A DNA stretch of 64,000 bases, from contig NZ_CAMTTE010000001.1 in NCBI RefSeq assembly GCF_947077775.1, positions 1,612,001-1,676,000 of the forward strand, in the 5' to 3' direction. The notes beneath the pieces were generated by a model. That model had not been told where the DNA came from and did no database searches. It saw only the letters and a program-made list of their open reading frames with translations. The DNA is from Salinibacter pepae (lineage in GTDB: Bacteria > Bacteroidota > Rhodothermia > Rhodothermales > Salinibacteraceae). Of this stretch, positions 15,280 through 34,106 are shown piece by piece (the first letter of the stretch is position 1; each line of letters opens with the position of its first letter). The position numbers and the translations under genes were made by a program.

Positions 15280-15618
15280 CTACCGCGCGCTTCCGGTGAT
15301 GCCCATTCGCATGAGGTCAAAGTGCTCGGTAAGCGCCCGCGAGGCCAACCGCGTGCGCATCTGCGTGTCCGTCAGCGACATGAGCTCCTCCTCGAGCACG
15401 GGCGCCTCGTCTTCCACCTCCGTGTCGGGCTCCACCTCCGACTGCTCCCGGAGGCTGCCCGAGTGCCGACGCACGTCCTGCAGCTCCTCTTCGAAGGAGA
15501 CCGACATCCGGTCGTATCCGGGCGTGTCGATGTTTGCGAGGTTGCTGGACGCGGCCCGCCGACGCTGGGCGTAGGCGGACATCGCGTTGCGCAGAAGGCG
15601 AACCTGTGTGGTTTCCAT
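15280..15618 (-). CDS. flgB: Flagellar basal-body rod protein FlgB
   Basis: A 112-residue proximal rod subunit and first gene of the main flagellar operon. METTQVRLLRNAMSAYAQRR is followed by AASSNLANIDTPGYDR, the SNLANxxTPGY signature of FlgB. The end (RLASRALTEHFDLMRMGITG) corresponds to the FlgB C-terminal helix. ATG 15618 is chosen over an upstream one that would add 30 residues without rod character. A sigma-28-type promoter lies about 100 bases upstream. Confidence 0.92.
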   Translation of the reverse strand: METTQVRLLRNAMSAYAQRRRAASSNLANIDTPGYDRMSVSFEEELQDVRRHSGSLREQSEVEPDTEVEDEAPVLEEELMSLTDTQMRTRLASRALTEHFDLMRMGITGSAR

Positions 15619-15716
15619 GGCCGAATCGGTCCTGCGGGGAAAGCGCGTCGGGTCTACAATCCAATCAAGCACCGTGCCATGACCGTGGCACTCTGGTGCA
15701 CCCATCAAGAAATCTG

Positions 15717-18333: not shown

Positions 18334-18693
18334 TTAGCCGAAGAGCTCGGTGAGGGAGGAGGCCACCTCCTCGGTCACGTCCGGCTCGGTGAACCGCCCG
18401 TTTTCGACCTGCTCCTGAAGCTCCGTCCGCCGCTCCTCCGAGAGCGACGCCTCTTCGTTCAGGGCCTGCCGGCCGCGCTCCACGAGCGCCACGTCCTCGC
18501 CGCTCAGGCGCTCCTGGGCGGCCCGCGCCGCGTCGGAAATCTCGACCTGGTCGGTGCCGGCGGCGTCGGTCGTCTCGGGCGACTGCTCCGACGACGCCTC
18601 CTCCGCGTCTGCGGCCTGCTGCGCCTCACCGATGTTCTCGTTGCGCGCCGAGTCCGGCTGCAACGGCCCGATGGATGGGTTCTGAATGCTCAT
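18334..18693 (-). CDS. FlgM-like anti-sigma-28 factor
   Basis: A 119-residue protein. The sequence DQVEISDAARAAQERLSGED (residues 49-68) matches the D-x-V-x-I-S-x-x-A pattern that begins the conserved half of FlgM. It is followed by a helical stretch ending TEEVASSLTELFG, where FlgM binds sigma-28. The first 45 residues are an acidic, Gln/Ala-rich disordered tail, as in FlgM proteins that are exported through the flagellum. A sigma-28-type promoter lies about 75 bases upstream, giving the expected feedback loop. Length exceeds the usual 90-100. Confidence 0.65.
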   Translation of the reverse strand: MSIQNPSIGPLQPDSARNENIGEAQQAADAEEASSEQSPETTDAAGTDQVEISDAARAAQERLSGEDVALVERGRQALNEEASLSEERRTELQEQVENGRFTEPDVTEEVASSLTELFG

Positions 18694-20796: not shown

Positions 20797-21111
20797 TTAT
20801 GCAGGCTGCTGTTCGAGCACGCCCTCGCGCCACCCGTCGCGGAGCTCTTCGAGCAACCCGCGGATCATGTCGAGGTCGCCGGTGGCGCATTCGTTCAGGC
20901 AGAACTCGTAGATGCCGAGCAGGCGGTCGGCCAGCTCGCCGCCCTGCTCCATATTGAGCGCCTCGATCAGCTCCACGAGCACATCACGGAGCGTGTCCCG
21001 GTCTTCCTGGTGACACGCCTGGATGCCTGCCTCGTAGAGCTTGTCGATGAGCTTTTCGGGCGAGGCGGTCTGGACGGCCTGCTGCTGGTATTGCTGACGT
21101 GCGCTGTACAT
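20797..21111 (-). CDS. fliS: Flagellin chaperone FliS
   Basis: A 104-residue chaperone that holds flagellin unfolded before export. The FliS pattern is clear: ARQQYQQQAVQTASPEKLID (usual Y-x-x-x-x-V-x-T-A-S-P-x-x-L-I), then LYEAGIQACHQ and a four-helix pattern. The start MYSARQQYQQQ at 21111 fits the family. It leaves about 130 bases to the sigma-28-type promoter at 21241. It heads the fliS-fliD-fliT-like unit. Confidence 0.92.
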   Translation of the reverse strand: MYSARQQYQQQAVQTASPEKLIDKLYEAGIQACHQEDRDTLRDVLVELIEALNMEQGGELADRLLGIYEFCLNECATGDLDMIRGLLEELRDGWREGVLEQQPA

Positions 21112-21240
21112 GAGGATGGATGCAAATTTGAGTCCAACGCGATCAAAATGGGGGACGACGGGTCGCCTCGTTTCCTCACGGGAAACGATTTCCGGCCCGG
21201 AGCGTCCTTCCGGGGCGGTGTCCCCGTCGTTCACTCCTGG

Positions 21241-21267
21241 TTATCGGAGCCCCGGGCAATCTTTTAA
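21241..21267 (-). promoter_or_regulatory. Sigma-28-type promoter of fliS-fliD
   Basis: On the minus strand: TAAA, 14 bases, TCCGATAA. The -10 element is at 21241-21248. Confidence 0.75.
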
Positions 21268-21345
21268 GGGCGCCCCGCGCCACACTCCCGTTTTGCCGTT
21301 CTGAACGGGGCCCCGGCCCCATCCTCCCAGCCTGGCCCGTTGACG

Positions 21346-21516: not shown

Positions 21517-24500
21517 CTACGCCTCCGCGTCGGCAGCATTCTCGGCCCGGGGCAGCCGCACGACGAACCGGCTCCCGTCGCCCTTCTCGGTGTCTACCTC
21601 AATGTCCCCGTCCATCTCTTCGGTTGCCTTCTGGGTAACGGCCAGCCCCACCCCGCTGCCCTCGTACGTCCGGCCGATGCCCTCCGACGCCTGGCGGAAC
21701 GGTTCGAAGAGCTCCTCCGCGGCCTCGGGCTCCATCCCAATCCCGGTGTCCTCGACCGCCAGCACGGCCGCCCCGTCCTCCCGGTACGTTCGTACACGGA
21801 CGCGCCCGCCCTCGTTGGTGTATTTGATCGCGTTGGAGAGAAGATTCTGGACCACGATCTGCACCCCTCCCTCGTCGGCCCGGGCCCGAACGGGCCCGTT
21901 CCCGGTCTCGACCTGGAGGCGAACCCCCTTGTCCGTGGCCTTCGGCTTTAGCTCCTCGGCCGTCCGGCGCGCCCGGGCCGCCAGGTCGACGGGCCGGCGG
22001 TCCAGCTCCATCTGCCCGGCCTCTAGCTTCGACAGGTTGAGCACCCCCTCCAGGGTGTCCAGGAGGCGCTTGCCCCCCTGCTCAATCAGGTGGGCCTTCT
22101 GCTCCAGCGAGCCGGCCGCCGCCGCGTCCAGGGCCCCCACCTCGGTCCCCAGGATCTCGGCAAACCCGATGATGGACGTGAGGGGCGTGCGGATTTCGTG
22201 GCTCATGTTGGCGAGGAACGCGGACTTCAGCCGCGCCGCCTTCCGGGCCTCGTCCCGGGCCTGCTCGGCGTCGGCCCGGGCCGCCTCCGCCCCCTCCTTC
22301 GCCGTCCGGAGCGCCTCCTCGCGGCGCAGGCGCTCGAGCACCAGGGCCGCGTACCCGCCCAGCACCTCCAGCAGGCGCAGGTTGAGCCGGTCGAAGTCGC
22401 CTTCGTCCGACGTGCCGGCAATGATCACGCCACGCCGGCCAATCGGCACCCCGGCCGCGGCCCGCAGGTCCCCGTAGTCGATGTCGTTCTCCAGCGCGGC
22501 GGTGTCGGGGACGACGACCGCCTCCCCGGCCTCCAGTGCACGCGCCGCAACGGTGTCGCCGTCGACCGGTTGCGGACTGGGCGTCGGCAGGTCGGCGTCG
22601 CCCTCGGCGGTGGTGTTTCGCGGGACGATCTCGCCGTCCTCGACGAACGCGGTGTGGCGGAACGGATACGTAAAAACGTCCTGGAGTACCCCGTGCACCT
22701 CCGCGGCCACCTCCTCGCGGGACCCGGCCCGGAGCAGCCGCCGGGTGGCCTCGTAGAGGGCCTCGATCTTTTCGGTGCGCCTGCGGAGCACCTGCTCCTG
22801 CCCCTTCTGCTCCGTGATGTCGTTGAGGTGAAACAGGGCCCCCTGCGCCGTGCCCTCGACGTCCTGCAGGGGCGCCCCACTCACCGACAGAATGCGGCGG
22901 GTCCCGTCCGGCCGTTCAATCGCGTGCTCGTAGCCGAAGACGGGCTCCCCGGTCCGGAGAACCCGCCGGAACGGAAGGTCCGCGTCCGGAATGGGGCGCC
23001 CGTCGACCGTCGTGATGCCCCATTCCGGGTCGTTGAAGGCGCGTTCGGTGGCCTCGGCCTCCTCAATCCCCATCACCTCTTTGGCCCGCTCGTTCACCCG
23101 GACGAAGGTGCCCGCCTCGTCCAGCAGCACAATGGCGGCCGGGCTCGTGGACAGCAGTTGGTCCAGCAGGTCCCGCTCCTGCCGGAGGCTGTTCTCCTGG
23201 TCCAGCCGGTCGAGGACGGCCGTCGCGTAGGTGCCAAGCACCTCGATCAGGCGAATGTCAAAGGCACTGATGGCGCCGGGATCGGGGGAGGCGACCGCGA
23301 AGGTGCCGTGTGCCCCCATCGGCACGACCACCACGGACCGGAGCGCCCCGTAGTCGTGCGGGTCTTCCACCTCGACGGCCTGCAGGTCGGAAATGGTGAG
23401 CGTGTCGCCGCTCCGGTACACCTCCGCCACCGCACTGTCCCCGTCGATGTCGAAGGGCGGGCGCTCGGGCATGAAGTCGCGGGTCGCCTCCGCCACGTGG
23501 GCCACCTCCAGGACGCCTTCTCGGGCAAACCGGACGGACACGCCCTGGTGGCCAAGGGCCTCCCGGATGATCTCGACGAGCACCGTGGCGATCTCGTCCG
23601 TGCTGCACGCCGTCAGCAGACGATCGGCCGTCTCGTAGAGGGCCTCCACTTTGTCCCGCCGCCCCCGGAGGGCCCGTTCGCGCTCCTTCTCGTCGGTGAC
23701 GTCCCGGGAGACGGCCATGCCGGCGATCACCGTCCCGGCCTCGTCCCGAACCGGAAGGATTTGGACGCGGTAGTCGCCGTCCTGGTAGCTCGCTTCCAGG
23801 GCGTGCTTTTCCCCGTCCAGCGCACGGCGGTAATATTCGGCCTGCCGATCGGCGATGTCTTCGGGAAACAGGTCGTGGAGCGTGCGCCCGGTGACCTCCT
23901 CGGGGGAGAGCCCGACGTCGGCCAGCCCCTGCCCCCCGGCCGTCCGGAACGTCAGGTCCTCGTCGAACAGAAAGACGGCCCCGTCCGGAAAGTTGTCGAC
24001 GAGGGTCTGGTACTGGCTCTTCGACGTCCGGAGGGCCTCCTGCCGCCGTCGACGGGCGGTAATGTCCTGAATCGTCCCCCGCACCCGCACCACCGCCCCG
24101 TCTTCGGACTGGGGCGCCCCGCGGGCGTGCACCCACCGGCGCGTTCCCTCGGGAAGGACCAGCCGGGCCTTCAGGTCGAACGGCGTGCCCTCCTCGACCG
24201 CGTTCTCGACGGCGGCCCGCACCGTTGGGCGGTCGTCCGGGTGGCAGGTGCGAAGGGCCTCGTCCAGACTGTCACTGGGACGGGCCGGCAGTGCCATCAT
24301 TTGGCGGGCGTTCTCGGTCCAGCGCACCGTGTCGGCCCCCACGTCGTACTCCCACGCCCCGACGTCGGCAATCTCCTGGGCCCGCTCGAAGAGGTCGTTC
24401 TGGCGCTCCAGCTCGCGCTCGCGCCGCTTCCGTTCGGTGATGTCCTGCAGGGCCCCGGCCACCTTCACAATCTCCCCGTCCGCCTCGACCGGCGCCCCCA

Positions 24501-25719
24501 CCGTGCGGACCCACCGGCGATTCCCCTCGGCCGTGATGATGCGATGCTCCACGTCGTAAGAGGCGCCCGCCTCCACACAGCGGTCGAAGGCATCCCGCAC
24601 CCGCGACTGCGCGTCCGGGTGCACAAACTCGAACGCGGCGTCCAGGCTCAGCTCGGTGTCCGGGTCGAGCTCGTGGATCCGATACCCCTCGTCCGACCAG
24701 GCCACCTCTCCGGTGCGGAGGTCGGCCATCCACGCCCCCGTCAGCCGCTGGGCCTGCTCCAGAAGGCGTTGCTGCCGCCGGAGCGCCTGCTCGCGCTCCT
24801 GCTTCTCGGTCACATCCCGCTGGATGGACACCCAGTACTGCAGGGCGCCCGCCGCGTCGAACATCGGCGTCGTGGTCCAGCGGGCACTGTAGCGCTCCCC
24901 ATCCTTCCGGTAGTTCACGGTTTCTCCCGTCCACGGCTCCTGGGCCGCCAGGGCCTGCTCGAGCGAGGCAATGACTTCGGGATCGGTCTCCGGGCCCCGA
25001 AGCAGCTGCGGCGTGCGGCCGATCAGTTCCGCCTCGGCGTACCCGGTCATCTCTTCGAACGCGCGGTTGACGTACGCGATGGTGCCGCCATCCGCGTCCT
25101 CTCCCGCCTCGCGGCCGGGGGCCTCAGTCACCACGACGCCGTCCGTGGTCTGCTCGACCGCCTCGGAGAGGATGCGCAGGGTGTGCTCCTGCTCCTTTCG
25201 TTCGGTGATGTCGAGCATGAAGCCGTTGAAGACGAGCGCCTCGCCTCCTGCTTCCGGCCGGCGCTCCAGCACCGAGGTGAGGAGCAGCCAGACCCGCTCC
25301 CCGTCGGGCCGGTCGAACGGCAGCTCCACCTGCTCCGGGCGCGCTCCGCTCCGGGCCGCCCGCACGCAGTGGTCGTGCCGGTCTCGGTACGCCTCCGGCA
25401 CCCGAGCCAGGAACTGCGCTTCGAAGTCGTCCGCGTCCGGGGCCAGCCCGAGCAGCGCCTCCGCCCGCGCGCCGACGAACGCGTAGCGGCCCGCCCCGCC
25501 CGGCCCGACCCGGTATTGAAACTCGATGCCCGGGAGGCTCTGGGCCACCCCGCGGAGCCGGTCCGCCTCGGGGGTCCGGCGTGCCTGCTCCCCGGCGGCC
25601 TCGGCCCCTGCGGCCCCGAACCGGCGCCAGAGCCCGGCCCCCACCAGGCACACGGCGGCGCCGGCCAGAAACGAAAGGACGTACCCGAACACCAGCATGC
25701 CGGGAGAAAGCACACTCAT
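21517..25719 (-). CDS. Multi-PAS/GAF hybrid-sensor histidine kinase
   Basis: A 1,400-residue kinase. It has one N-terminal membrane helix (residues 8-31), then PAS domains at about 55-175, 182-305, 318-430, 440-556 and 566-675, a GAF at 685-840, a PAS at 850-970 and a GAF at 978-1130. A coiled coil leads to the dimerisation domain with H1174 (ANMSHEIRTPL) and an ATPase domain (LLSNAIKYTNEGG, VEDTGIGMEPE, EGSGVGLAV). Several PAC ends read LQDITER or SIQRDVTEK. The GAF domains, with phrases such as DYGALRSVVVVPMG and ISAFDIRLIEVLGTYATAVL, resemble those of halophilic archaeal kinases. There is no receiver domain and no adjacent regulator, so the output is unknown. Confidence 0.88.
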   Translation of the reverse strand: MSVLSPGMLVFGYVLSFLAGAAVCLVGAGLWRRFGAAGAEAAGEQARRTPEADRLRGVAQSLPGIEFQYRVGPGGAGRYAFVGARAEALLGLAPDADDFEAQFLARVPEAYRDRHDHCVRAARSGARPEQVELPFDRPDGERVWLLLTSVLERRPEAGGEALVFNGFMLDITERKEQEHTLRILSEAVEQTTDGVVVTEAPGREAGEDADGGTIAYVNRAFEEMTGYAEAELIGRTPQLLRGPETDPEVIASLEQALAAQEPWTGETVNYRKDGERYSARWTTTPMFDAAGALQYWVSIQRDVTEKQEREQALRRQQRLLEQAQRLTGAWMADLRTGEVAWSDEGYRIHELDPDTELSLDAAFEFVHPDAQSRVRDAFDRCVEAGASYDVEHRIITAEGNRRWVRTVGAPVEADGEIVKVAGALQDITERKRRERELERQNDLFERAQEIADVGAWEYDVGADTVRWTENARQMMALPARPSDSLDEALRTCHPDDRPTVRAAVENAVEEGTPFDLKARLVLPEGTRRWVHARGAPQSEDGAVVRVRGTIQDITARRRRQEALRTSKSQYQTLVDNFPDGAVFLFDEDLTFRTAGGQGLADVGLSPEEVTGRTLHDLFPEDIADRQAEYYRRALDGEKHALEASYQDGDYRVQILPVRDEAGTVIAGMAVSRDVTDEKERERALRGRRDKVEALYETADRLLTACSTDEIATVLVEIIREALGHQGVSVRFAREGVLEVAHVAEATRDFMPERPPFDIDGDSAVAEVYRSGDTLTISDLQAVEVEDPHDYGALRSVVVVPMGAHGTFAVASPDPGAISAFDIRLIEVLGTYATAVLDRLDQENSLRQERDLLDQLLSTSPAAIVLLDEAGTFVRVNERAKEVMGIEEAEATERAFNDPEWGITTVDGRPIPDADLPFRRVLRTGEPVFGYEHAIERPDGTRRILSVSGAPLQDVEGTAQGALFHLNDITEQKGQEQVLRRRTEKIEALYEATRRLLRAGSREEVAAEVHGVLQDVFTYPFRHTAFVEDGEIVPRNTTAEGDADLPTPSPQPVDGDTVAARALEAGEAVVVPDTAALENDIDYGDLRAAAGVPIGRRGVIIAGTSDEGDFDRLNLRLLEVLGGYAALVLERLRREEALRTAKEGAEAARADAEQARDEARKAARLKSAFLANMSHEIRTPLTSIIGFAEILGTEVGALDAAAAGSLEQKAHLIEQGGKRLLDTLEGVLNLSKLEAGQMELDRRPVDLAARARRTAEELKPKATDKGVRLQVETGNGPVRARADEGGVQIVVQNLLSNAIKYTNEGGRVRVRTYREDGAAVLAVEDTGIGMEPEAAEELFEPFRQASEGIGRTYEGSGVGLAVTQKATEEMDGDIEVDTEKGDGSRFVVRLPRAENAADAEA

Positions 25720-26271: not shown

Positions 26272-26769
26272 CTACTCAATGAGGTCGCGCACCGCCGGCC
26301 CCGTAGCGTGGGCCTGGGCGCGCCGCGCCGTCTCGGCCTGGGCCTGCATCTGGAGCTTCGCGGCCCGGGCCTGCGCTCGCGCCCGATCGGCGCGGGAGAG
26401 ACGGGGGCCCGTCGCGTCCAGCACGCTGTACTCGGGGGCGTCGTTTTCCCCAGACGGGGCCTCCTGCGGATCCGGGGCCGGCGCGTCATCCCGGGCCCCG
26501 TCACCCGTCGCCAGCTCGGCGGTCGTGGCCCCGAGGTCGTCGAGAGAATCGGACGGGATCCGCATCGGACCGTCGGGCCACGCCCCCGCGCTGGCCCGGC
26601 TCACGGGCCGCCCGTCGATGCCGGTGCGTGTGGGGCTGGAGGTGCTGCCCGTCGCGTGGGGGACGTGCACACGTGCTCCGCCGTCCGGGATTGACTCCGG
26701 GCCGGGGCCGAGCGGGAGGAGAAACGTCGTCGGGGCGACGGGACGGGGCGAGGCCGAAAAGACACGCAT
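26272..26769 (-). CDS. Orphan protein under a sigma-28-type promoter
   Basis: I do not recognise this 165-residue protein (start MRVFSASPRPVAPTTF, ATG 26769). Residues 1-115 are Pro/Gly/Ala/Asp-rich and look disordered. The last 45 form an Ala/Gln/Arg-rich amphipathic helix (ARAQARAAKLQMQAQAETAR) ending PAVRDLIE. There is no signal peptide. A sigma-28-type promoter (26840-26866) identical in layout to those of known flagellar genes lies about 70 bases upstream, so I infer a late motility gene, possibly exported like FlgM or FliK. A reading on the opposite strand exists but lacks such support. Confidence 0.62.
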   Translation of the reverse strand: MRVFSASPRPVAPTTFLLPLGPGPESIPDGGARVHVPHATGSTSSPTRTGIDGRPVSRASAGAWPDGPMRIPSDSLDDLGATTAELATGDGARDDAPAPDPQEAPSGENDAPEYSVLDATGPRLSRADRARAQARAAKLQMQAQAETARRAQAHATGPAVRDLIE

Positions 26770-26839
26770 GGCGGGACCGGGGACCAGTGAAGAATGCAGA
26801 AACGAATGGGCACGCCGTGTGGATTCGGCTCGTCTTTTG

Positions 26840-26866
26840 TTATCGGAGGTGAGCGGGGGACTTTAA
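26840..26866 (-). promoter_or_regulatory. Sigma-28-type promoter of the orphan gene
   Basis: On the minus strand: TAAA, 14 bases, TCCGATAA. The -10 element is at 26840-26847, about 70 bases before the ATG at 26769. Confidence 0.75.
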
Positions 26867-27013
26867 ACGCCCCAAGAAGGCAAGAAGGGAGGCGCGCCTT
26901 TGAGGGAGGTGGGACCGGCGAGCACGGGTGCGGGCGGTTTCGTGATGGCGACCGCGGAGGCGTCCGGGATGTCACGGAAGCAAACGGGGCGGCCCGACAC
27001 AACGGCCCAAGAC

Positions 27014-27098: not shown

Positions 27099-28358
27099 TT
27101 ACTGGAGGAGCGAGAGGACGCTCTGGCCCGCTGCGTTGGCCTGCGCCAGCTGCGCGGTCCCGGACTGCTGCTGCACCTGCAGCTTCGCGACCTGCGTCTG
27201 CTCGCGAGCAAAGTCCGCGTCCTCAATCCGGCTCTGCGCCGCGTTCAGGTTCGTCTGGCTCGTCTCCAGGTTCGACTCCTTGAACGAGAGCCGGTTCTGG
27301 CTCGCGCCCAGGTCACTGAGCTGGCTGGTCAACCCGTCGATGGCACTGTCCACGTCGTCGATGATGTTGCGGGCCTCGTCGGCGCTGCCGCCCTCCAGTC
27401 GGGTACCGATGTCTTGATTGTCCCGGACTTCCACCGTGAAGCTCTTCGTTTCACCAGAGCCGATTTGACCCGTCGTAATGTTCAAATTGCTGGCATCAAG
27501 TGCAATCTTATTGCTCCCGTCACTCGACAGGGTCAGTGTGTCGTTAGTGCCAGTAAACGTGCTTGTGGCACCAGTGCCCGCAAAGGTAGCCGTGGTGCCG
27601 GTGGCACTGAGCGTGAGGGTAGACCCATTCTTTTGTGCGTTAATCTCGAAGGTGCCGCCTTCGAGGTCTCCGGCTAGGTTCGTCCCAGATGAATCTAAGG
27701 TTTTAAACCCCCCTGTCGTGAGGGCCGTGACGGCACTCGACGTGCTGGAGAAATCCCCAGCATTCACGTTCTGGCCAGCGTTGTCTCCGGTGTTGGACGT
27801 TGCATCTAAGTTACTCGCCACCCCGAGGTCCTGGGCGGTGGAGTTGGCGATATTGACGTCGAAGGTCTGGTCGCTCTCCGACCCGGTCTGGAACGTCAGC
27901 CCGACGGAGTTGCTGCTGTCCCCCGACGTCCCGCCCTTGATCAACTGGTCGCCGTTGAACGTCGTGTTCTCGGCAATGTCGTTGACCTCCCCCACCAGCT
28001 CCTGCAGCTCCCCCGCAATCGCGTCCCGCTCGTTCTGCGACAGGCTGCCGTTGGCCGCCTGCGTGGCCTTCTCCCGGGCGGACTGCAAAATGCCAAGCTG
28101 GGAGTCGAGCGCCCCCTCCGCCGTGCTGAGCGTGCTCTTCGCGTCCCCGATGTTGCGGAGCGCCTGCTGCTGAGACCCGGTCCGCGCTTCCAACTGGGCC
28201 GCAATCTCAAAGCCGGCGGCGTCGTCGGAGGCACTGTTGATGCGCAGCCCCGTCGAGAGCCGCTCTCGGCGCGTGGCCAGCTCCTCACTGGTGTCCGACA
28301 GGTTCTGGAAGGCCTGCTGGGACTGAATGTTGGTGTTGATCTGCGAAAAACTGCTCAT
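27099..28358 (-). CDS. Flagellin (downstream copy)
   Basis: A 419-residue filament subunit. The N-terminal D0/D1 region (SSFSQINTNIQSQQAFQNL; LSTGLRINSASDDAAGFEIA) and the C-terminal region (RIEDADFAREQTQVAKLQVQ; AQANAAGQSVLSLLQ) are classic. The first 175 residues and about the last 90 are identical to those of the neighbouring flagellin, while the central domain differs. No sigma-28 site lies in the 59-base gap before it, so it is probably read through from the copy upstream and ends at the terminator at 27014-27051. Confidence 0.95.
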   Translation of the reverse strand: MSSFSQINTNIQSQQAFQNLSDTSEELATRRERLSTGLRINSASDDAAGFEIAAQLEARTGSQQQALRNIGDAKSTLSTAEGALDSQLGILQSAREKATQAANGSLSQNERDAIAGELQELVGEVNDIAENTTFNGDQLIKGGTSGDSSNSVGLTFQTGSESDQTFDVNIANSTAQDLGVASNLDATSNTGDNAGQNVNAGDFSSTSSAVTALTTGGFKTLDSSGTNLAGDLEGGTFEINAQKNGSTLTLSATGTTATFAGTGATSTFTGTNDTLTLSSDGSNKIALDASNLNITTGQIGSGETKSFTVEVRDNQDIGTRLEGGSADEARNIIDDVDSAIDGLTSQLSDLGASQNRLSFKESNLETSQTNLNAAQSRIEDADFAREQTQVAKLQVQQQSGTAQLAQANAAGQSVLSLLQ

Positions 28359-28417: not shown

Positions 28418-29701
28418 TTACTGGAGGAGCGAGAGGACGCTCTGGCCCGCCGCGTTGGCCTGCGCCAGCTGCGCGGTCCCGGACTGCTGCTGCACCTGCA
28501 GCTTCGCGACCTGCGTCTGCTCGCGAGCAAAGTCCGCGTCCTCAATCCGGCTCTGCGCCGCGTTCAGGTTCGTCTGGCTCGTCTCCAGGTTCGACTCCTT
28601 GAACGAGAGCCGGTTCTGGCTCGCGCCCAGGTCACTGAGCTGGCTGGTCAACCCGTCGATGGCACTGTCCACGTCGTCGATGATGTCGCGGGCCTCGCCG
28701 GCACCGGCGTTCTGTAGCCGGGTGCCGATGTCCAGCTCGTCGCGGACCTCCACGGTGAAGCTTTTCGCCTCGCCGCCGTTTTCGAGACTATCCGTTGCGA
28801 TGCTGATATTGCTCCCCGTCACCGAAATAGTCGCGGACGTACCGCCAGTGGTGCTTGAAAGCGTCAGCGTCTCAGAGCTGGTGCCATTGAATATCGTTTC
28901 TCCTCCACTCGTAGTAGTCCCGGTGATTGTTGTGGAATTGCCATTGGCACTGAGCTTAATCGAATCGGTCGCAGTTTGCTCGACCGACACGTCAAACTCA
29001 CCGCCTTTGAGGTTGTTGACGAGACTTGTCTGTGCGCTGCCATTCGTAATATTGACATTTCCTTCAACTCCAGACACAGCAGTCTCAGCGAAGTCTCCTG
29101 CGTTGACGAGCTGCCCACCTCCACTATCTACTGATGTCGACGCGTCGACATCCGTCTGCCGGATCCCGAGGTCTTCGGCGGTGGAGTTGGCGATATTGAC
29201 ATCGAAGGTCTGGTCGCTCTCCGACCCGGTCTGGAACGTCAGCCCGACGGAGTTGCTGCTGTCCCCCGACGTCCCGCCCTTGATCAACTGGTCGCCGTTG
29301 AACGTCGTGTTCTCGGCAATGTCGTTGACCTCTCCCACCAGCTCCTGCAGCTCCCCGGCGATCGCGTCCCGCTCGTTCTGCGACAGGCTCCCGTTGGCCG
29401 CCTGCGTGGCCTTCTCCCGGGCGGACTGCAAAATGCCAAGCTGAGAGTCGAGCGCCCCCTCCGCCGTGCTGAGCGTGCTCTTCGCGTCCCCGATGTTGCG
29501 GAGCGCCTGCTGCTGAGACCCGGTCCGCGCTTCCAACTGGGCCGCAATCTCAAAGCCGGCGGCGTCGTCGGAGGCGCTGTTGATGCGCAGCCCCGTCGAG
29601 AGCCGCTCCCGGCGCGTGGCCAGCTCCTCACTGGTGTCCGACAGGTTCTGGAAGGCCTGCTGGGACTGAATGTTGGTGTTGATCTGCGAAAAACTGCTCA
29701 T
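28418..29701 (-). CDS. Flagellin (promoter-proximal copy)
   Basis: A 427-residue flagellin starting MSSFSQINTNIQSQQ at 29701. A longer ATG start adds 32 residues that are not flagellin-like. N- and C-terminal polymerisation domains are the same as in the downstream copy. The central segment (about residues 176-335) is distinct and rich in Thr, Ser, Gly and Asn with few charges other than acidic ones, suitable for surface exposure and modification. A sigma-28-type promoter lies about 105 bases upstream. Neighbouring plus-strand sulfotransferase genes suggest possible modification of this protein or its glycans. Confidence 0.95.
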   Translation of the reverse strand: MSSFSQINTNIQSQQAFQNLSDTSEELATRRERLSTGLRINSASDDAAGFEIAAQLEARTGSQQQALRNIGDAKSTLSTAEGALDSQLGILQSAREKATQAANGSLSQNERDAIAGELQELVGEVNDIAENTTFNGDQLIKGGTSGDSSNSVGLTFQTGSESDQTFDVNIANSTAEDLGIRQTDVDASTSVDSGGGQLVNAGDFAETAVSGVEGNVNITNGSAQTSLVNNLKGGEFDVSVEQTATDSIKLSANGNSTTITGTTTSGGETIFNGTSSETLTLSSTTGGTSATISVTGSNISIATDSLENGGEAKSFTVEVRDELDIGTRLQNAGAGEARDIIDDVDSAIDGLTSQLSDLGASQNRLSFKESNLETSQTNLNAAQSRIEDADFAREQTQVAKLQVQQQSGTAQLAQANAAGQSVLSLLQ

Positions 29702-29803
29702 GGGTCTCGGCTGGGTTGATGTAGAGGATCTCAGTGAGCGTGCGTGGCAGGTGCGTCCGGGCATCGGTCCGCCGCCCGGCGTCGTGCATCGGCTCACCCC
29801 CGG

Positions 29804-29830
29804 TTATCGGACACGGACCGGGGTTTTTAA
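29804..29830 (-). promoter_or_regulatory. Sigma-28-type promoter of the flagellins
   Basis: On the minus strand: TAAA, 14 bases, TCCGATAA. The -10 element is at 29804-29811, about 105 bases before the flagellin ATG. As flagellin is the standard FliA target, this site anchors the reading of the other five. Confidence 0.85.
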
Positions 29831-30039
29831 ATCAGCTCGGCCCGGCCCGCCGACGGCTTTGTTCTGTGCAGTATTCTCGAGGGGCGGCCGTCCGTGAGAA
29901 AAAATGGTGGGGAAGCTGGCTCAGTGTTTGCTCCGAATTGACGTTGCACACGCGGGCGCTCGTGCATCGTGCTTTCGCGTGCGGACATCTCGGCCCGCCG
30001 GTTCTCGTTCTGCTTTGTCTCACTTTCACCGGCTGTTCC

Positions 30040-30897
30040 ATGCAATTTGTCGTCAGCTACCCCAAAAGCGGCAACACGTGGGTTCGCCTCGTGGCCGCCG
30101 CGTACACGCTCTCCGACGACGTGCTGATGGAATCCCTGCGGTCTCCCAGCGCGTCGGCCGACCTTCCCGCCTCCCTTCAGTATACCGACGTGGAGCGGTA
30201 CCAGTACCAGACCATCTGCCCCTTCCCGATCGACGACATCAATTTTCCGACGGAGGTGCGGTTGCGCCCCGCCGCCATGCTCGTGCTCAACCGGGAGAAG
30301 AGCCTCACCACGAGCCAGCGCCCGGCCCTCATCAAGAGCCATCACATCAACGGGGAGGTCAACAACATCAATCTCTGGAATGGGGGATGGGCCGAGCACG
30401 TCGTCAACCCCGTCCGCGACCCTCGCGAGATCTGCTGCTCGTTCGCCGCGCACCGCGAGATGAGCTACATGGAGACGGCCGAGCTCATGAACGACTCCAC
30501 GGCCCGGATGGGCGAAGACGGGGCGCGCGTTCACAGTCTTCTTACCACCTGGAGCACCCACGTCCGCAGCTGGCTCGAGGAAGAGACGATTCCCGTCCAC
30601 ACCGTGCGCTACGAGGACCTGCAGGCCGACCCGGTCGGCGAGTTCTACGACATCCTGGACTTTCTGGAGGTGGAGGACCTGACGGAGGAGCGGGTGGAGG
30701 ACGCCGTCGAGCGGACCCGCTTCGACCGGATGCAGGAAATGGAGGCGGAGCACGGCTTCCACGAGACCACCGCGGACCAGGAGCAGTTCTTCCGCTCCGG
30801 GCAGACGGCCGGCTGGACGGACGAACTCCCGACCGACGTGGCCCGCAAGATTGAGGCGGACCACGGGCCGACGATGGAGCGACTCGACTACCTGTAG
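30040..30897 (+). CDS. PAPS-dependent sulfotransferase, copy 1
   Basis: A 285-residue cytosolic-type sulfotransferase, predicted to transfer sulfate from PAPS to a hydroxyl or amine. The 5'-phosphosulfate loop is SYPKSGNTW (residues 6-14). The 3'-phosphate motif is VNPVRDPREICCSFAAH. A catalytic-His candidate lies in LIKSHHINGEVNN, followed by VRYEDLQADPVGEFYDILDF. The ATG at 30040 gives MQFVVSYPKSGNTW, the family start, matching copy 2. No signal peptide. It lies 338 bases from the divergent flagellin start and has a paralogue immediately downstream. The acceptor is unknown; flagellin, its glycan or a lipid are candidates. Confidence 0.85.
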   Translation: MQFVVSYPKSGNTWVRLVAAAYTLSDDVLMESLRSPSASADLPASLQYTDVERYQYQTICPFPIDDINFPTEVRLRPAAMLVLNREKSLTTSQRPALIKSHHINGEVNNINLWNGGWAEHVVNPVRDPREICCSFAAHREMSYMETAELMNDSTARMGEDGARVHSLLTTWSTHVRSWLEEETIPVHTVRYEDLQADPVGEFYDILDFLEVEDLTEERVEDAVERTRFDRMQEMEAEHGFHETTADQEQFFRSGQTAGWTDELPTDVARKIEADHGPTMERLDYL

Positions 30898-30987: not shown

Positions 30988-31850
30988 ATGCAGTTTGTCG
31001 CCAGCTACCCCAAGAGCGGAAACACCTGGATTCGCCTCGTCGCCGCCGCGTACTCGTTGCAAAACGTCACCGCCGAAGACTTCATGCGGTTCAACGAGGA
31101 CGACGAGTCCCGCATCAGCAACGTGATCCGGTTTGGGGACGGGACCAAGTACTACTACCAGGCGGTCAGCCCCTACCCCATCAAGGCCCTTGACTTTTCG
31201 GCGCAGGCCCGTCTCCGGCCGGCCGCCATGCTCAAGCTCGAACACGAGCTGTCGGAGACGACGACCCAGCGTCCCATTCTGGTGAAGAGCCACCATCTCA
31301 ACGGCGACGTGGACGGCGTCAACCTCTGGAATCCGGCGTGGACCGACCGGGTCGTGAATCCGGTCCGCGACCCGCGGGAGGTCTGCTGTTCATTCGCCGC
31401 GCACATGGGAAACAGCCTGGAGAAGACCGCCGAGCAGATGAACGAGGAGAAGTTCACCATTGGGGGCGGGGAGAACCTCTTTCACCTGCTCGGCACCTGG
31501 TCGCAGCATGTCCGGGGGTGGCTCAGCGCCGACGAGACCCCCGTCCACACCGTGCGCTACGAGGACATGAAGGCCAACCCCGTCGGGGAGTTCTACGACA
31601 TCTTGGACTTTCTGAACGCGCCCGACCTGACCGTCGAACGGGTGGAAAAGGCCGTCGAGAAAACGCGATTCGACCGGCTCAAACAGAAAGAAAACGAGCA
31701 CGAGTTTCCCGAGTCCACCAAGCACCAGGACAACTTTTTCCGCTCCGGCAAGACGGACGGCTGGAAGGAGAGCTTCCGGTCCGGCTCGTCCGCAAGATCG
31801 AAAAGGACCACGGCGACATGATGAACGCGCTGGGCTACGGGTATCTGTAG
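30988..31850 (+). CDS. PAPS-dependent sulfotransferase, copy 2, frameshifted near the end
   Basis: A paralogue of the preceding gene (MQFVASYPKSGNTWIRLVAAAY, two short blocks nearly identical). The PAPS loop, the NPVRDPREVCCSFAAH motif, KSHHLNGDVDG and VRYEDMKANPVGEFYDILDF are all intact. The frame is lost at about 31764-31775. One extra base there lets the protein continue as LPVRLVRKIEKDHGDMMNA and end LGYGYL at 31850, parallel to copy 1. As written, the unshifted frame stops at 31821. About 287 residues if repaired. The motifs lie before the break, but the C-terminal helix does not. Confidence 0.8.
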
Positions 31851-32068: not shown

Positions 32069-33073
32069 CTACGCCGCGAGGGGCGTGCCGGACGGCCGGT
32101 CCGGCGCCTCCGCGTCCGACGTGCCCACGAAGAAGTCGGTAAAGAGCATCACCATCTCCTTCTTCGCCCGCAGCCGGTCCATGAGGTCCGGGGGCGGGCC
32201 GTCGGCCTCGGGGGCGGGGTTCCAGTGCCGCCACACCGGCCGGGCGGCGCACGCGGCCCAGTCGATCGGCTCCGCCGTGGGCGCCACGCCGGCGAGGGGC
32301 GCCCCCATCGCCTTCGCGGCGAGGTTGGCCGCCCGGACGGCCCGCAGCGTGCGCCGCGGCGCGTCGCCCGTCTCGGAACGGGGCGGGTGGTGGTGGCGGA
32401 TCACGTCGACGAGCGTCTGGGGAAAGTTCAACTCCAGGGCGGCGTAGGCCCCGGCCTGGCCGTGGTCGCACCCGAAGACGAACCGCTCCAGGGTGCGGTC
32501 GTCCGTCTCCTGGAGGTGCTCCGCAAACCGCTTCTCCTCGTAGAGCGCGGCGGCCTTTTCAGGGTAGTTGTAGAACAGGACCAGCTTGCCGAAGTCGTGG
32601 AGCAGCCCCTCCGCGAAGCCCTCCCCCTGGGTGACGTCCGACTCCGGGGCCGGGCCGTCGTCGGCCGGCGACAGCGGGCCCAGCAGGCTGCTCGCGAGGA
32701 AGCCCGTCGCCTCGCTGTGTCGGATGAACCGGTGGAAGCAGGCCTCCACGGGCCCGTCGGCCAGCTCGTCCATCCGCAGCATGCCGAGGCTCACGACCGA
32801 GCCCGCGGCGGTGGTGGTGCCCATCATGCGGATCGCCCGCCCCACGTCCGAGATGGAGCGGCGGAGGCCGTAGTAGGCGGAGTTGATCTGTTTGAGCAGC
32901 CGCGCGGTGGCGGCCGGGTCGTGCTGCACGATCTCGGTCAGGTCCTCCGGGTCGGTAAAGCCCGGCTCGTGGAGGAGCTCCAGGACACTGGGGAGCGTGC
33001 GCGGGAACGGCGGCACACGCAGGTCGAGGTCGCGCAGGGCCGCGTCAGGCGTTTGGGACGGGTCGGTGCTCAT
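32069..33073 (-). CDS. HDOD-domain signalling protein
   Basis: A 334-residue protein whose residues 15-290 form an HDOD domain (a degenerate HD phosphohydrolase relative used in signalling): LRVPPFPRTLPSVLELL, the VQHDPAATARLLKQINSAYYG block, SDVGRAIRMMGT and LLHDFGKLVLF. No second catalytic or output domain is visible. It lies 72 bases after flgL on the same strand and is probably the last gene of that unit. HDOD proteins occur near chemotaxis and flagellar genes in other phyla, but the role here is unproven. Confidence 0.82.
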   Translation of the reverse strand: MSTDPSQTPDAALRDLDLRVPPFPRTLPSVLELLHEPGFTDPEDLTEIVQHDPAATARLLKQINSAYYGLRRSISDVGRAIRMMGTTTAAGSVVSLGMLRMDELADGPVEACFHRFIRHSEATGFLASSLLGPLSPADDGPAPESDVTQGEGFAEGLLHDFGKLVLFYNYPEKAAALYEEKRFAEHLQETDDRTLERFVFGCDHGQAGAYAALELNFPQTLVDVIRHHHPPRSETGDAPRRTLRAVRAANLAAKAMGAPLAGVAPTAEPIDWAACAARPVWRHWNPAPEADGPPPDLMDRLRAKKEMVMLFTDFFVGTSDAEAPDRPSGTPLAA

Positions 33074-33145
33074 CGGACTGGGGCGCCGGGGCGCGGGCCG
33101 CAGGAAGGGGCGGGCCGCGGGGCCGGCTCGGGTTCAGGGGTCGTG

Positions 33146-34106
33146 CTAGAGGAAGTTCACGAGGGACGTTTGCCGTGTGGAGGAGGTGGCCTGGAAGGCC
33201 GCCTGCAACTGGGTCTGCCGCTGCTGGAGCTCCGAGATGGCGGTGGCGAGGTCCGTGTCTTCGGCGTCGGAGCGCCGCTCGTTGGCCTCCAACGACGCCG
33301 CCTCCACCTGCTCCTGGGCCGTGGTGAGGCGCCGCCCAATCGCGCCCGCCTCCGAGCCCTTCGAAATCACGTGGTCGAGCGCGTCCTCCACCTCGCCGAG
33401 GGCCGTGCTGATGTCCGGGTCCGGCGGCCCGCTCGGGGGCATTGTCGGCCGGGTCCACGGCCTTGATCAGGTTGTCGAGGGCGCCGGTGATGGTCTTCGG
33501 GTCCCCGCCGGCCGTGGTGCCGTACTGGGCGAGCGCCTTGCCGTCGACGTTGACCGTCAGGTCCTGGTTTTTCCCGATCGGCCGGGTGCGGTCGCCGTCG
33601 AGGGCATCGAGGGCCCCGTTGATGGGGGCGTCGCTGTTGACATCACCGTCCTCGTTGAACGGCTGCGTGTCGGTGCGATTGCCGGCGAAGATGTACTCCC
33701 CGTCCTGCGTGCTATTCATCCGGTCCACGACCTCGTCCTTGATGGAGCGCAGCTCGTCGGCGATGGCCCTCCGGTCGTCATCGCTGCGGGTGTCGCCGGC
33801 GGCCCGGACGCCGTCCTCGCGGGCCGTGGTGAAGAGGTCGGCCAGGCCGTCGAGCTCCTGCTGGGTGCGGTCGACGAACGTGCGGGCGCTGGCGATCGAC
33901 TCCTCGCGCCGCGCCAGCTTGTTGCCGAGCGTCTTCATCCGCTCGGCCGTGGCGAACGAGGCGGGGTCGTCCGAGGGGCGGTTGATCCGCGTCCCCGAGC
34001 TGATCTGCTCGCGGAGGCGGCTGATGTCGCGCTGCAGGCGGGGCACCTCGTCGGAAATCACGCCGGAGTAGACACTTGAATTGGTGGCGATGCTAACGTT
34101 GGCCAT
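33146..34106 (-). CDS. flgL: Hook-filament junction protein FlgL, frameshifted
   Basis: A junction protein of about 320 residues. The N-terminus (MANVSIATNSSVYSGVISDE; QISSGTRINRPSDDPASFAT) is FlgL/HAP3-like, followed by EYIFAGNRTDTQPFN, a FlgL hallmark. After a run of five G (33435-33439) the frame changes. Removing one base gives NAPSGPPDPDISTALGEVED and the C-terminal helix ending SSTRQTSLVNFL, which is flagellin-like. It follows flgK across an unusual 221-base spacer. The break is more likely a base-calling error than decay because both halves are well preserved. Confidence 0.85.

Follow-up and report, generated by a model that had tools for sequence, protein, structure and literature searches.

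In Salinibacter pepae, a gene of 165 codons encodes a protein whose C-terminal ~45 residues almost certainly descend from the D0-C helix of flagellin. As judged from its sequence, this protein most likely engages the flagellin export chaperone FliS, either as a competitor or as an exported client. The reading favoured here, to which a probability of roughly 0.4 is assigned, is that of a lineage-specific gene derived from a flagellin tail and made together with flagellin, whose product would be a competing FliS ligand.

The gene was analysed within a window of 64,000 nucleotides, the whole stretch of DNA under consideration, taken from a source genome of 3.63 Mb (designated G000; the other genomes compared are G002, G003, G004, G007 and so on). 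Its open reading frame, which begins with ATG and lies where the original prediction had placed it, occupies positions 26272-26769 of the minus strand and is backed by the list of open reading frames, by orthologues and by purifying selection. Comparison with the orthologues of G003 (84% identity) and G004 (70%) distinguishes three conserved parts, at residues 1-24, in the middle and in the tail. Between them runs a linker in which whole codons have been inserted or deleted, as with the 13-codon insertion and the 32-codon deletion of G004. The orthologue alignment delimits an N-terminal block of the form MRVxSxSPRPxxPTTFLLPLGxGP (residues 1-24; 26698..26769, minus strand) and, together with AlphaFold2, a variable low-order linker in which whole-codon indels are tolerated (residues 25-121; 26407..26697, minus strand). 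The remainder is the diverged flagellin D0-C helix (residues 122-165 plus the stop codon; 26272..26406, minus strand), recognised by ungapped alignment to FliC, shuffles and AlphaFold2, with Pfam Flagellin_C below its cut-off. A disordered N-terminus followed by a C-terminal helix had been proposed earlier, and AlphaFold2 agrees: the model, built on a three-row alignment, places a helix at residues 126-164 and is of low confidence elsewhere (mean pLDDT 57.6), including a short helix at residues 73-87. By ten-residue blocks, pLDDT amounts to 73, 89 and 85 over residues 121-150, followed by 65 and 58 at the C-terminal end. The N-terminal part is predicted by the model to be disordered and includes the N-terminal block, which is conserved in sequence.

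BLASTP pairs residues 117-165 with the final 49 residues of the adjacent FliC in an ungapped alignment of 47% identity that runs to the C-terminus of both sequences, and the tails of the two flagellins are the best non-self matches genome-wide (E about 3e-5). The alignment scores 95 (82 and 88 for the orthologues), against a null mean of about -13 (sd 12) from 100,000 composition-preserving shuffles, whose maximum was 47 for the tail of this gene and 50 over all three orthologues; the best shifted register scores 6. Alignment, shuffles and registers together establish the common descent of the C-terminal D0 helix with that of flagellin. The gene had been described as an unrecognised orphan, a label that no longer applies, and its Ala/Gln/Arg-rich helix is, by this alignment, the flagellin tail, which was missed at the time. 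Like the D0 C-terminal region of flagellin (Pfam PF00700, Flagellin_C), this tail is a C-terminal helix encoded behind the same type of promoter. Unlike flagellin, the protein scores just 13 bits against the Flagellin_C cut-off of 23, gives no Pfam match to Flagellin_N, lacks D1, has Arg or Ala in place of hydrophobic residues and begins with a disordered, unrelated N-terminus; it does not belong to the flagellin family as defined by both Flagellin_N and Flagellin_C above their Pfam cut-offs. The orthologues in G003 and G004 show no Flagellin_C match at E<=10, and Pfam alone would therefore miss the homology. A PDB search with the whole protein returned no match at E<=10. Weak Pfam, NCBIfam and PHROGs matches to Ketoacyl-synt_C (12.3 bits), TatA (11.6) and a head closure family (12.7) were judged to be chance.

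The surroundings of the gene are flagellar. For the flagellin gene fliC1 (27099..28358, minus strand; Pfam Flagellin_N and Flagellin_C), whose tail is of the source type, the pattern scan shows no separate sigma-28 site; fliC2 (28418..29701, minus strand; recognised by Pfam) has one without mismatches. The last 150 bases of this tandem pair are 99.3% identical, which suggests a recent conversion, as far as the sequences tell. The putative partner FliS is encoded at 20797..21234 (minus strand; Pfam FliS, 58.3 bits), and the anti-sigma-28 factor FlgM at 18334-18693 (minus strand; Pfam FlgM, 16.9 bits), the latter below the Pfam cut-off but aligning at 51% identity with a G002 homologue that lies above it. 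Downstream of the 165-codon gene is a PAS-domain histidine kinase, named from sequence motifs (21517..25715, minus strand). In G007 this kinase follows directly after fliC; in G002 fliS comes immediately after fliC, and the kinase that lies between them elsewhere was not found in the G002 stretches read. The gene for the hook-filament junction protein, flgL, is split over two frames of the minus strand (33045-34106 and 33146-33442): compared with the open copy of G003 (DNA 94% identical), the length at a C-run differs by a net two bases. The strain may have lost its motility or be phase-variable at this place, or the split may come from a sequencing error. Two plus-strand open reading frames within the flagellar cluster, 29734-30897 and 30988-31821, have in common an N-terminal SYPKSGNTW motif, which we take to be sulfotransferase-like.

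The promoter of the gene, TTTAA-N15-TCCGATAA (26840-26867, minus strand), has no mismatches to the flagellin-derived sigma-28 pattern. Further sites were located by the pattern scan before fliC2 (29804-29831, no mismatches), fliS (21241-21268, one mismatch), flgM (two mismatches) and an open reading frame taken for flgB (15280-15708, one mismatch), and with fliS, flgM and the putative flgB among the genes behind such sites, the pattern is indeed a marker of flagellar genes. If up to 3 mismatches are allowed, the window contains 8 sites compared with 1.08 expected, a number reached in 0 of 100 shuffles, and at up to 2 mismatches the genome contains 25, as against 3 for the reversed pattern. The 3.63 Mb genome holds just three mismatch-free sites, those of the 165-codon gene, fliC2 and C1:2083771. 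The original prediction had judged the site to be as good as that of flagellin; both are indeed free of mismatches, which for this pair is true by construction as the pattern was derived from these two sites. Its absence of mismatches in the G003 and G004 orthologues too is independent of the source of the pattern, and this upstream, conserved sigma-28-type promoter places the gene in the sigma-28 (FliA) regulon, as had been predicted. The third mismatch-free site (C1:2083771-2083798) lies outside the flagellar cluster, 51 bases upstream of an open reading frame of at least 483 amino acids. All three leaders of the gene also contain GAGCCG, spaced as in the fliC leaders of G000, G003 and G007 (the G004 fliC leader has GAACCG). 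A common origin of promoter and tail in a single copy of a flagellin gene is no more than hinted at by this motif, because the leaders of fliS and flgM share part of the same sequence.

The gene is narrowly distributed. Flagellin genes occur in 5 of the 13 genomes of the genus (G000, G002, G003, G004 and G007), and the 165-codon gene in three of these five (G000, G003 and G004) and in none of the eight without fliC. The proposal of a lineage-specific gene that co-occurs with fliC thus agrees with its restriction to a few close relatives (3 of 13 genomes), all with flagellin; homologues without the promoter in relatives without flagellin were looked for and none was seen. G007 and G002, which both possess fliC and fliS, lack the gene at the corresponding position, so that a genome can have flagellar genes without it; although G002 is 62% complete, the syntenic stretch was read there as in G007. 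Outside the genus no relatives were found by a pattern search of genome contigs, which gave 71 pattern matches and 0 relatives and may have left out near relatives of the window, or by a profile search of the phylum. The latter, run with the three-row alignment on an evenly drawn sample of 394 genomes, matched 10 and gave full-length matches in two (G000 and G003), G004 not being among the results; the remaining rows coincide in part with flagellins, sit at the ends of contigs (G055) or have no flagellin match (G037). Flagellin_C occurs in 90 of the 394 genomes. Among the matches listed, the short frames with only the C-terminal flagellin region in G094 and G305:C11 end at contig ends (both checked), and those in G275:C92, G305:C13 and G386:C59 have coordinates that place their beginning close to the start of a contig. 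No prior description of this gene, or of a flagellin fragment that consists of D0-C alone and has a sigma-28 promoter to itself, was found in the open-licence literature at the level of titles and abstracts.

As to gain or loss, a FliD tree, read without the outgroup row G031 (branch 5.4), groups G004 with G007 (99/96), whereas site patterns in FliS, FlgM, FlgN and FlgC favour G004 with G000/G003 by 9 to 0, a count in which the FlgN rows of G003 and G004 contain a stop; for FliD the count is 5 to 15. A concatenated tree does not settle this conflict, and the gene may have been lost in G007 or never have been present there. The FliD of G004 itself stands at 86.5% to that of G007 versus 78% to those of G000/G003, contrary to the site patterns of the other flagellar proteins, and a recombination of fliD between G004 and G007 is possible on this pattern.

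FliW, which elsewhere binds flagellin and reads its levels, was not found in any of the 13 genomes of the genus, so that, of the known cytosolic partners of the tail, FliS remains. According to PMC6070490, the C-terminal D0-C segment of flagellin wraps around FliS, and because the tail corresponds to this same segment it may bind FliS likewise; a copy of the flagellin tail behind a flagellin-type promoter would probably engage flagellin's export chaperone. Two further sources report that C. jejuni flagellin without its last 10 residues no longer binds FliS (PMC5466977) and list the contacts of H. pylori FlaB to FliS (PMC7248283). When these contacts, 10 in number, are placed by counting from the C-terminus, the window flagellin has identical letters at 7 of 10, which supports the C-terminal register. 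At the same positions the 165-residue protein is identical to flagellin at 6 of 10, with one further change from L to I (7 of 10 in G004), and the three orthologues agree with one another at 9 of 10. Retention of the contacts does not significantly exceed that of the rest of the tail (Fisher P 0.33, 0.22 and 0.09), and several of the conserved hydrophobic positions in the flagellin tail have become Arg or Ala here, with a lower mean hydrophobicity. A single preserved helix face gave P values of 0.008 to 0.29 depending on window and pitch settings, was not robust and is hence not claimed.

Under the competitor reading, a short gene would have arisen from the 3' part of a flagellin gene and been kept under a flagellin-type sigma-28 promoter, with its protein made simultaneously with flagellin and FliS. 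The tail would occupy part of the FliS pool as a competing ligand, and FliS occupancy would tune the amount of flagellin escorted to the export gate. In Salmonella, FliS also binds FlgM, according to PMC8527033, and where this holds the rate of FlgM exit would be tuned too. It is possible, if rather doubtful, that such a self-made decoy provides a negative feedback on the export of flagellin and FlgM in a genus in which FliW control is undetected. As the N-terminal half of D0 is lacking, the protein is not expected to be built into the filament like a regular subunit. A competitor is favoured by the end-anchored tail homology, the lack of a Flagellin_N match, the conserved promoter, the purifying selection, the occurrence in fliC-bearing genomes alone, the failure to find FliW and the proximity of fliS, under a sigma-28-type promoter; the lack of significant retention of the FliS contacts, the loss of tail hydrophobics and the absence of the gene from two genomes with fliC and fliS speak against it. 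By analogy, the precedent that the protein most resembles as a mimic of a flagellin domain is H. pylori HP1076, also a small lineage-specific protein, which according to PMC7248283 mimics the flagellin D1 domain, competes for FliS and shows no motility phenotype on deletion, the last point counting against a competitor role here. HP1076 resembles D1 and the present protein, a putative FliS ligand, D0-C.

A somewhat unlikely alternative is that the protein is itself an exported client, the flagellin tail serving as an address tag that hands a disordered protein to FliS and the export gate. The homology of the tail, the disordered N-terminus predicted by AlphaFold2 and a conserved N-terminal block that might be an export signal are consistent with this. 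The block has no similarity to the flagellin N-terminus, though, and its FxxxPhi sequence, which resembles the motif recognised at the FlhB gate, is also present in 35% of shuffles; with the motif at chance level this candidate was dropped, and the block is at most a putative export signal. The client reading also has a precedent in C. jejuni FlaC, which PMC5466977 describes as FliS-dependent, secreted and not assembled. Both proteins are flagellin-derived, neither is a main filament subunit and FliS is the likely escort, but FlaC keeps D0 and D1 at both ends, whereas the 165-residue protein has only the last ~45 residues.

Improbable, too, is that the gene is what remains of a truncated flagellin duplicate and is translated into a protein that has no function. 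Its place directly downstream of two flagellin copies, its absence from G007 and G002 and a weakly constrained linker with large indels (omega 0.79 in the closest pair) would fit a remnant. Against this, the indels are of whole codons only, the frame is open in three species and the promoter is free of mismatches in all of them. Selection was assessed with three orthologues (G000, G003 and G004) against a null in which the same base changes were moved to random sites with the mutation spectrum preserved. The three pairs show 27, 40 and 42 amino-acid changes compared with 36.5, 55.6 and 53.8 under the null (P = 0.0008, 0.0000, i.e. 0 of 5000, and 0.0004); omega is 0.57, 0.35 and 0.46 for the whole gene and 0.30, 0.21 and 0.37 for the C-terminal helix. 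The N-terminal block alone is too short for significance in this test (P 0.15-0.26). These substitution patterns support translation and purifying selection of the gene. Moreover, about half of the tail positions differ from flagellin, yet 33 of 43 are invariant among the three orthologues, as after a burst of change followed by constraint.

It is quite improbable that the protein is a minor structural or anti-polymerisation partner, in which a D0-C-like helix pairs with the free D0-N helix, either that of flagellin or that of a protein of the hook junction. Within filaments D0-N and D0-C are packed together, and the tail is homologous to that of flagellin, but a tail with fewer hydrophobic positions and added Arg speaks against packing in a D0 core. 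The suggestion of a FlgM- or FliK-type regulator, made in the original prediction, is highly implausible: the disordered, secreted-looking N-terminus, the C-terminal helix and sigma-28 control resemble FlgM, but the protein has no Pfam match at E<=10 to FlgM (PF04316) or to the C-terminal Flg_hook domain of the hook-length control protein FliK, a separate FlgM gene lies at 18334-18693, and its helix is a flagellin tail. Convergence of two Ala/Gln-rich helices, for which the shared composition and the sub-threshold Flagellin_C score might be cited, is scarcely credible given a score far above every shuffle and shifted register and two flagellins as the best matches genome-wide.

The competitor reading and its alternatives turn an anonymous orphan into a testable case in which the chaperone-binding tail of a structural protein may serve as a regulator in its own right or as a tag for cargo. 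The gene, present in only three of the genomes covered here, also illustrates cleanly how a gene of narrow distribution can derive from part of its neighbour and stand under its neighbour's type of promoter. If FliS is the target, the protein would join HP1076, the known D1-side mimic, as a D0-side mimic of flagellin, and would provide a way of feedback in a genus in which no FliW was found.
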